64,000 bases of DNA from Pseudomonas weihenstephanensis (GTDB lineage Bacteria; Pseudomonadota; Gammaproteobacteria; Pseudomonadales; Pseudomonadaceae): positions 124,001 to 188,000 of the forward strand of contig NZ_JYLF01000004.1 in the NCBI RefSeq assembly GCF_001043055.1, read 5' to 3'. Numbering within the stretch: the stretch's first letter is position 1; each line of letters starts with the position of its first letter. The notes under the pieces are model-generated. The model was given only the letters and a program-made list of their open reading frames with translations, made no database searches and was not told where the DNA came from. A program made the position numbers and the translations under genes. Of the stretch, positions 13,339-40,148 are shown one piece after another.

Positions 13339-13512
13339 CGTGTTCTCCTTGGCTGGCGGGCAGTGTCCGCCGTTGAAATGGGACGCCGAGCAGAATGCCC
13401 CGACTGCGGTTGAGCGGCAACCCGAATAGTGCTCACCGCGTTGAGCTGTGCAAAAAACAACCAGCGACGTCAAAGCCTTGCTGCATAAGGGGTAGCGCCA
13501 TATGCACTCACC

Positions 13513-13521
13513 TTATCCACA
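13513..13521 (+). promoter_or_regulatory. DnaA-box consensus 9-mer
   Basis: TTATCCACA exactly, first of the cluster in the gene-free region, embedded in CCTTATCCACAGG. Confidence 0.5.
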
Positions 13522-13730
13522 GGCCCGTCCACAGTCTTTGGGGGCAAGTCGAAAAACGCAAAGCCACGGCATACAAGGCTTTCAGCCAATTTTTAAGCGT
13601 TTTTTACTTGACCGGAACACAAGCCGCATGCAGCCGCCCCAAAAAGGTGCGGCGCCAGGCAACCAAGGGGATAGCCAGAGGCCAGTCTTTACGGCACTCA
13701 GGGCGTTCTTTCCAGAGTTTAACCACAGAC

Positions 13731-13739
13731 TTATCCACA
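13731..13739 (+). promoter_or_regulatory. DnaA-box consensus 9-mer
   Basis: TTATCCACA exactly, preceded by a one-mismatch copy (TTAACCACA, 13719-13727) only three bases upstream. Confidence 0.5.
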
Positions 13740-13769
13740 GGCTGACGCCGCATTTTCAGCGCCTAATTT

Positions 13770-13791
13770 TTATCAACAAAGCTGTTGACAA
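13770..13791. promoter_or_regulatory. Pair of opposed DnaA-box-like 9-mers
   Basis: TTATCAACA at 13770 and the reverse complement of TTGTCAACA at 13783 face each other four bases apart in an A/T-rich stretch. Confidence 0.4.
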
Positions 13792-14082
13792 ATCGACCGT
13801 GCGGCCAACCAAAAGCAGCTGATCAAAAAACAATCACACCTCTACACGCCTTATAAACAAAGGGCTACAGCCAACTACTCCCACGTTACCCACAGCCACC
13901 TCCACAGCAAACGGGGACAAGTCAAAATGATGACAAAACAGGGGTTTACAGCGTCTTTATGTCGCGCTTTCGCAGCCCCGCAATTTTGTTTTCCACAATT
14001 TGAGGGCGTCTCCATTTTGTTGTGGAAGCACGCCTGTTCGCGAAAGCACTCGGTACGGCTCTGACAGGCAAACCTCGACAAA

Positions 14083-14119
14083 CCCATCGCGAGTACGCTC
14101 GCGCCTACAAGGCGATGGG
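14083..14119. repeat. REP-like palindrome
   Basis: CCCATCGC pairs with GCGATGGG, enclosing an inner GCGAG/CTCGC-type hairpin and the word CCTACA. It is 24 bases from the 3' end of livF and could also act as its terminator. Confidence 0.6.
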
Positions 14120-28070: not shown

Positions 28071-28118
28071 CACCCTCGGCCCGGTTATCCACAACCCGGC
28101 CCACAGGATCTGTGATCA

Positions 28119-39808: not shown

Positions 39809-39895
39809 GCCCAGATGGTGAAATTGGTAGACACGCCAGCTTCAGGTGCTGGTGATCGCAAGGTCGTGGAAGTTCGAGTCTTCTTCTGGGCACCA
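39809..39895 (+). tRNA. leuT: tRNA-Leu (anticodon CAG)
   Basis: An 87-base class II tRNA. The acceptor arm GCCCAGA pairs with TCTGGGC, CCA is encoded, the anticodon stem CCAGC/GCTGG frames the loop TTCAGGT (anticodon CAG), and a long variable arm (GGTGATCGCAAGGTCGT) is typical of leucine tRNAs. The T loop reads GTTCGAGTC. Confidence 0.97.
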
Positions 39896-40061: not shown

Positions 40062-40148
40062 GCCCAGATGGTGAAATTGGTAGACACGCCAGCTTCAGGT
40101 GCTGGTGACCGCAAGGTCGTGGAAGTTCGAGTCTTCTTCTGGGCACCA
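40062..40148 (+). tRNA. tRNA-Leu (anticodon CAG), second copy
   Basis: An 87-base copy that differs from the first by a single base (GGTGACCGC instead of GGTGATCGC) in the variable arm. Same anticodon CAG and encoded CCA. Separate promoter and terminator, so it is not a polycistronic partner of the first. Confidence 0.97.

Follow-up and report, generated by a model that had tools for sequence, protein, structure and literature searches.

A conserved one-direction array of DnaA boxes between an SDR gene and livF in Pseudomonas: a candidate datA-like locus built partly from dispersed modules

Why should DnaA boxes be crowded into a gap that has neither a gene within it nor dnaA beside it? The gap lies upstream of an SDR gene (best named model YdfG, at a score below that model's cut-off) and downstream of livF, both on the minus strand, in the window, by which is meant the whole 64,000-nt stretch of DNA analysed. 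An earlier, sequence-only reading had described a gene-free region of about 800 bp with no dnaA nearby, and both points stand: the roughly 800 bp are intergenic, and in this draft genome the window is on contig C26 and dnaA on C25. Perfect TTATCCACA words occur in the window at 13513 (+), 13731 (+), 28085 (+) and 2014 (-), the last two being, as had been said, the only ones outside the cluster, and four copies were reached in none of 100 shuffles. With up to one mismatch to TTATNCACA allowed there are 37 sites over the whole window, a number reached by 7 of 100 shuffles, so that the total is not unusual. At the cluster itself eight such sites fall within 560 bp, against a maximum of four in 300 first-order Markov simulations, and over the whole genome TTATNCACA words number 173 as against 55 for the reversed control. 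A chance cluster is ruled out by that simulation together with the retention of the boxes in 57 of 57 sequences; the cluster is beyond chance, and conserved.

The element spans 13441-13997 and comprises three head-to-tail box pairs with 3-bp spacers, 12 bp from start to start (13513/13525, 13719/13731 and 13886/13898), and one single box (13989). The interval first proposed opened at 13513, by which point the conserved unit has already been entered, module A starting near 13441. Its parts are as follows.

13441..13560, plus strand: module A, a 120-bp unit with a Fis-type 15-mer, an inverted repeat, a DnaA-box pair and a GGGGGCAA tail (match to the module profile R2 at C26:137444-137556)
13448..13462, plus strand: Fis-type 15-mer GNNYRNNNNNYRNNC of module A, with an A-tract centre (30 of 30 A modules)
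13513..13521, plus strand: DnaA box A1, perfect TTATCCACA (57 of 57)
13525..13533, plus strand: DnaA-box-like A2 (nnnYCCACA), 3 bp past A1
13539..13547, minus strand: inverted third-box place of module A, altered to TGGGGGCAA (GGGGGC in 30 of 30 A modules)
13710..13718, plus strand: conserved word TTCCAGAGT preceding pair B (invariant in 32 of 32)
13719..13727, plus strand: DnaA-box-like B1 (TTAACCACA, TTAGTCACA or TTAATCACA)
13731..13739, plus strand: DnaA box B2, perfect TTATCCACA, 3 bp past B1 (57 of 57)
13784..13791, minus strand: word GTTGACAA, which weakly resembles an inverted box (invariant in 32 of 32; its GTTGACA in 57 of 57)
13814..13933, plus strand: module C, 120-bp paralogue of module A (R2 match at C26:137816-137931)
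13821..13835, plus strand: Fis-type 15-mer of module C, GATCAAAAAACAATC (56 of 57)
13886..13894, plus strand: DnaA box C1 (TTACCCACA in 33 of 57, TTATTCACA in 24 of 57), 155-156 bp past B2 in 30 of 30
13898..13906, plus strand: DnaA-box-like C2 (nnYTCCACA or nnTTCCACA), 3 bp past C1
13912..13920, minus strand: inverted third-box place of module C, altered to CGGGGACAA (GGGGACAA in 30 of 30 C modules)
13989..13997, plus strand: single DnaA box D (TTTTCCACA in 50 of 57, TTGTCCACA in 7 of 57)

Modules A and C align gap-free over 120 columns in 30 sequences and, judged by that alignment, are paralogous. Each has the 15-mer GNNYRNNNNNYRNNC with its A-tract, a GCC...GGC inverted repeat, a box pair and a GGGGnCAA tail; the second box of both pairs is weak, with three mismatches in the window's own copy. 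Where an inverted box with TGTGGG would be, GGGGGC or GGGGAC is found in 60 of 60 modules (30 A and 30 C), and no inverted box follows pair B. A1, A2, B1, B2, C1, C2 and D are all on the plus strand, which makes of them a one-direction array, datA-like in that respect. Several details reported earlier are thereby refined. The two perfect words are there, 218 bp apart and not 210. That boxes lie on both strands is weakly true, the conserved DnaA boxes being all on the plus strand and a minus-strand one-mismatch site at 13447 (TTTTGCACA) overlapping the Fis-type block. As to the opposed pair that had been pointed out, TTATCAACA at 13770 with TGTTGACAA, its first half is not conserved and its GTTGACA half is present in 57 of 57.

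How well is the arrangement kept in relatives? A DNA search with the gap gave matches in 120 of 149 congeneric genomes (own included; 89 of them below E 1e-20 by a hand count) and none in the remaining 29, and the strong matches mostly cover 13497 to 14001 of the window, with the gap ends outside them. From these, 58 loci were taken (57 distinct, own included), picked by overall similarity and not by their boxes, yet being the best-scoring ones; L084, which is the same place as L019, was dropped from the box count of 57 and kept in the neighbour count. Both perfect TTATCCACA words are unchanged in all 57 distinct sequences, and their spacing falls into two classes one helical turn apart, 208-209 bp (17 sequences) and 218-221 bp (40 sequences); from B2 to C1 the distance is 155-156 bp in 30 of 30. 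Aligned over 305 columns, 32 of the loci show a mean identity of 81% and hardly any gaps, though several spacers vary in sequence, and the invariant words that are not boxes include TTCCAGAGT, GTTGACAA and GGGGACAA. Spacing and orientation, on whose conservation the sequence-only reading had staked its proposal, are thus both kept in related genomes, these copies being largely orthologous and not independent. In a search of the whole family (298 genomes, 19 genera) 85 genomes matched, beyond the genus mostly with short pieces. R1, the profile of window 13697-14000, is matched over at least 280 of its 304 positions, nearly its full length, by at least 63 genomes of the same genus, the own one among them, and by one genome of another. 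A 30-base pattern around pair B was found in at least 119 stretches of named genomes, the 80 listed all being titled Pseudomonas. In another genus the SDR-livF gap also carries modules, three in G302 and one weak one in the P. aeruginosa-like G270.

The place on the chromosome is also nearly constant. In 28 genomes dnaA was located (26 of these genomes being in one contig), and in 27 of them the element is 0.53-0.75 Mb from dnaA, G029 being the exception at 2.2 Mb. For most of those genomes this is about a tenth of the chromosome, as it is for E. coli datA, which the map positions quoted in the literature place at 94.7 min with oriC at 84.6 min, i.e., 10.1 min from oriC; the relative oriC distances of datA, DARS1 and DARS2 are likewise described there as conserved in E. 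coli. The near-constancy could come from conserved gene order alone.

Modules A and C have counterparts elsewhere. With R2, eight copies below E 1e-4 are found in the own genome, two of them inside the SDR-livF element, and each of 39 relatives, which belong to four genera, has 5-31 matches at an E of 0.01 or less. Both R1 and R2 derive from best matches and therefore favour look-alikes. In ten closed genomes 107 R2 copies below E 1e-4 group into 3-7 loci per genome. None of these copies is farther than 1.47 Mb from dnaA, and in the six genomes of the same genus none is farther than 0.9 Mb; the probabilities computed for the clustering of the 107 are post hoc, and rough. For 4 of the 10 genomes of this placement, and for 14 of the 24 of the pattern placement below, the genome length was taken to the nearest 0.1 Mb, with an error of at most 50 kb, on one side. 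Among the six same-genus genomes the places near +0.66, +0.8, -0.5, -0.57 and -0.86 Mb recur, and modules are thus present to either side of the origin. In the own genome modules adjoin genes for ETF-beta and glycine betaine monooxygenase, for a TIGR03862 flavoprotein and for an SDR; the flavoprotein neighbour recurs in G084, whose array at -0.54 Mb is accompanied by an ETF-alpha gene. Of the set, the SDR-livF element is, by sequence comparison, the most conserved member found.

Some of the other members are arrays. Three copies stand in a row between the ETF-beta and glycine betaine monooxygenase genes (L036, G000:C25 about 567870-568300), a similar array of G084 (L204) is near the ETF-alpha gene, and a genome of another genus has an eight-copy array about 50 kb from dnaA (2332-3547 of L213, G259:C1:6005000-6011000).

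What do the dispersed copies look like? Their consensus is TTATCCACA-N3-nnnYCCACA-N5-TGTGGGCAA, and DARS1 and DARS2 of MG1655, whose sequences were read directly, have the same 9-3-9-5-9 layout. In a review, DARS box I is described as opposite to II and III, with spacing equal at both sites. Offsets taken from 93 boxes at 21 loci of dispersed copies put a second box at +12 in 22 cases and an inverted TGTG at +26 in 30, with at most 4 at any other; the TGTG is not imposed by R2, because R2 has GGGG there. A profile-free pattern, TTATCCACA-N8-CACA-N5-TGTG with at most one mismatch, has 2-13 matches per genome in 33 of 33 genomes and, when reversed, none in the 33. Placed on the chromosomes of 24 genomes (the draft G000 and also G271, G270, G302, G298, G266, G171, G251 and G175 were left out), 136 of 138 matches are in the origin-proximal 35% of the arms, the exceptions being G128:803206 and G259:4587984; the 35% limit was chosen after seeing the data, and about 48 of the 138 would be expected there if the matches were spread evenly. 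Of 73 module copies drawn from five genomes, 35 have a middle box and 36 a third box that ends in CACA; the strong box is the first. The earlier reading had missed that two parts of the cluster, A and C, are copies of a dispersed module, and that the other copies of this module show the DARS-core geometry.

Two individual sites have a related arrangement. The perfect word at 28085, which had been called isolated, in fact begins an intergenic TTATCCACA-N8-CACA-N5-TGTG arrangement (window 28085-28114) with a poor third box, and the same 30 bases are found in G132. At G000:C10:606664-606698 (L219 2165-2199), in 4.4 kb that hold one frame only of 150 codons or more, is TTATCTACA-GGG-TTATCCACA-GAGGC-TGTGGATAA. 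This is a DARS core in which, as in E. coli DARS1, the middle and the inverted box are strong; by its sequence it is a candidate for the true DARS of its own genome.

Is a helper protein likely to be involved? The 15-mer GNNYRNNNNNYRNNC we take to be a Fis-type site, as it fits the relaxed Fis consensus in the form that we assume for it. That form is fitted by 30 of 30 A and 56 of 57 C modules, yet the same motif also fits 72% of the sequences at 13504. Among the dispersed copies, 58 of the 73 have letters at the 15-mer; 53 of the 58 fit the relaxed consensus and 14 the strict one, given in the source excerpt as GNNYANNNNNTRNNC, and at ten shifted positions none does. The literature excerpts have DARS2 needing Fis. 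As to IHF, a scan of the element with WATCAANNNNTTR, presumed to be its consensus, gave no conserved site, the best position averaging 7.4 of 9 matches, with at least 8 in 39% of sequences, and a conserved IHF site as in datA was accordingly rejected. An RNA gene or a cruciform was likewise rejected: a search of Rfam gave no match above cut-off; for a covarying helix the paired cells were 57.3% versus 57.0% in shuffles, and none of 16 predicted pairs had changed on both sides in the element; and the inverted repeat of the module pairs no better than shuffled partners, though better than slid ones, with no covariation.

The element resembles E. coli datA in several parts. Both are intergenic DnaA-box clusters facing in one direction (the essential datA boxes, per the passages available, all point one way), and both are separated from oriC by roughly a tenth of the chromosome. 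The datA double box is a weak box, 3 bp and a perfect one (TTGTAAACA-gag-TTATCCACA), and pair B is likewise a weak box, 3 bp and TTATCCACA; according to the portion of PMC11317965 drawn on, E. coli DnaA in vivo favours double boxes spaced by 2 or 3 bp, datA among these. Inspection of the MG1655 datA sequence itself shows TTATCCACA at L105:845 and, 162 bp further along, TTATTCACA at 1007; the step from B2 to C1 is 155-156 bp, and C1 is TTATTCACA in 24 of 57. However, datA requires an IHF site between its essential boxes and the element is without a conserved one; it also differs in its three pairs, its modules and its Fis-type sites, and homology is not claimed. DARS1 and DARS2 share with the dispersed copies, in turn, a 9-3-9-5-9 core and an inverted third box, and the dispersed copies carry a putative Fis-type site, whereas the element has its inverted box altered and no DARS core of three boxes, the strong box is first in the dispersed modules and the middle one in both DARS, and module copies here run from several to some 30 per genome. 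Because of the lack of a conserved IHF site the element is not filed as datA or as DARS. Likened by description and not by sequence, DnaA-box clusters outside oriC in Bacillus subtilis and Streptomyces coelicolor repress untimely initiation and are termed analogous to datA in the excerpt of a citing paper. On datA or DARS of pseudomonads no title was found in the open-licence literature.

There is a further known relative, at least in appearance. R178 of P. fluorescens is a 101-bp intergenic repeat with an internal 11-bp inverted repeat, in 18, 28 and 9 copies in SBW25, Pf0-1 and Pf-5 (Silby et al. 2009, PMC2718517, in the sections consulted). Its length, inverted repeat and copy number are close to those of the module, a likeness by description, and the two may be the same; no DnaA role is given for it in those sections.

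Which function, then, suits such a locus? We lean towards a control locus that codes for nothing, would bind DnaA and act in the manner of datA, belongs to a distributed network of DARS geometry, and probably helps to set the timing of replication initiation. The computation itself yields the sequence, spacing, conservation, module family, geometry and clustering near dnaA. From these we infer that DnaA would bind the three double boxes as head-to-tail dimers; a Fis-type protein, binding in its turn, and the fixed helical phasing would draw the dimers together; and the resulting complex would act as datA does, so that once initiation has taken place less ATP-DnaA would be free, either because the complex sequesters it or because hydrolysis of the ATP is promoted. 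With about a tenth of the chromosome between it and oriC, the element would be duplicated soon after initiation. A negative effect is preferred for it because the inverted box is altered, pair B is without one and the good boxes all face one way. The dispersed copies, with an inverted third box and so DARS-core geometry, may act in the opposite sense, i.e., by analogy DARS-like where the element is datA-like. The class suggested at the outset, a titrating or reactivating site, gains support, because box sequence, orientation and spacing are conserved, the double boxes have the known geometry, the distance to dnaA is near-constant and there is no oriC-like AT-rich stretch; its make-up from dispersed modules had escaped notice. 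Against the datA-like reading are not only the absent IHF site (which datA needs) and the weak second boxes of A and C, but also the possibility that position follows gene order, the 29 of 149 congeneric genomes without a DNA match, the short pieces beyond the genus, and the reliance of the Fis reading on a relaxed consensus where the strict one fits 14 of 58.

Could the element instead be a DARS-like locus, its modules promoting release of ADP from DnaA and so, with Fis to help, raising ATP-DnaA before initiation? The dispersed copies with their 0/+12/+26 layout, the pattern matches in 33 of 33 genomes with none for the reversed control, and a putative Fis-type site in each module, when DARS2 is described as needing Fis, would all suit it. 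However, a head-to-head pair is, as the available excerpts have it, the feature of DARS, and the element has TGGGGGCAA or CGGGGACAA-type letters at the inverted box in 60 of 60 modules and none at pair B, while even in dispersed copies CACA is kept by only about half of the middle and third boxes (35 and 36 of 73), and it is the first box, not the middle one, that is strong. We regard this as unlikely for the element. A dormant or secondary origin is very improbable. Many DnaA boxes are there, and the part of a review that was drawn on credits P. aeruginosa with two autonomously replicating elements, one essential and the second not needed for viability; but AT content reaches at most 64% in any 50 bp of the element versus 80% upstream of the own dnaA, and in 2-kb windows GC skew does not change near 13.5 kb. 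A second origin was rejected on these two grounds, and the earlier opinion that this is not the usual oriC is borne out by the 0.53-0.75 Mb to dnaA in 27 of 28 genomes and by the want of an oriC-like AT-rich unwinding stretch.

Quite improbable, too, is a transcription control or termination element serving SDR or livF. The element is upstream of the one and downstream of the other, SDR being found at 52 of 57 loci and LivF at 56 of 57, and DnaA can, in the excerpts cited, regulate transcription. However, L030 and L090 retain the element with an HflK-family gene in the place of SDR (flanks beyond SDR and LivF were looked at for these two; L091 is also without SDR, and L023, L077 and L088 are short), and other module copies adjoin unrelated genes. 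An SDR promoter was rejected on the strength of L030 and L090, and the datA-like reading is supported because the element stays where the neighbour gene differs. An inert or selfish dispersed repeat, in which words like DnaA boxes would be incidental, deserves very little credence. Modules are indeed dispersed and repeated, as is the 101-bp intergenic R178 with its 9-28 copies in what was drawn on of PMC2718517, but the boxes are invariant and their spacing is kept, 136 of 138 pattern sites are in the origin-proximal 35% of the arms, and 107 of 107 profile matches (E < 1e-4, 10 genomes) are within 1.47 Mb of dnaA.

If the datA-like reading is extended from the element to its relatives, a wider picture can be drawn, tentatively and at rather less than even credence: pseudomonads would control DnaA via a distributed network of several to some 30 composite modules (each a Fis-type site, an inverted repeat and a DnaA trio of DARS geometry) placed recurrently within that third of each arm which is nearest the origin. 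In this network the SDR-livF element would be a specialised datA-like hub, produced when two of the modules had their inverted box altered and a plain double box was added. Were it true, R178, listed in 2009 without a function, would be a replication-control element, so that a dispersed intergenic repeat would gain a function, and origin-flanking sites would have to be considered as possibly shaping gene order near oriC. ATP-DnaA adjustment between replication rounds is little known outside E. coli, and with deletable non-coding loci of predicted opposite roles, in genetically easy strains, the question is testable.

Two minor features of the window may be added. Just beyond the element, a 31-bp word at 14088-14118, which presumably resembles a Pseudomonas REP sequence, has a further copy, 90% identical, at G000:C28:121900 and is also found in relatives. 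Further on, 39809-39895 and 40062-40148 are tandem tRNA-Leu genes with the same anticodon (cag).
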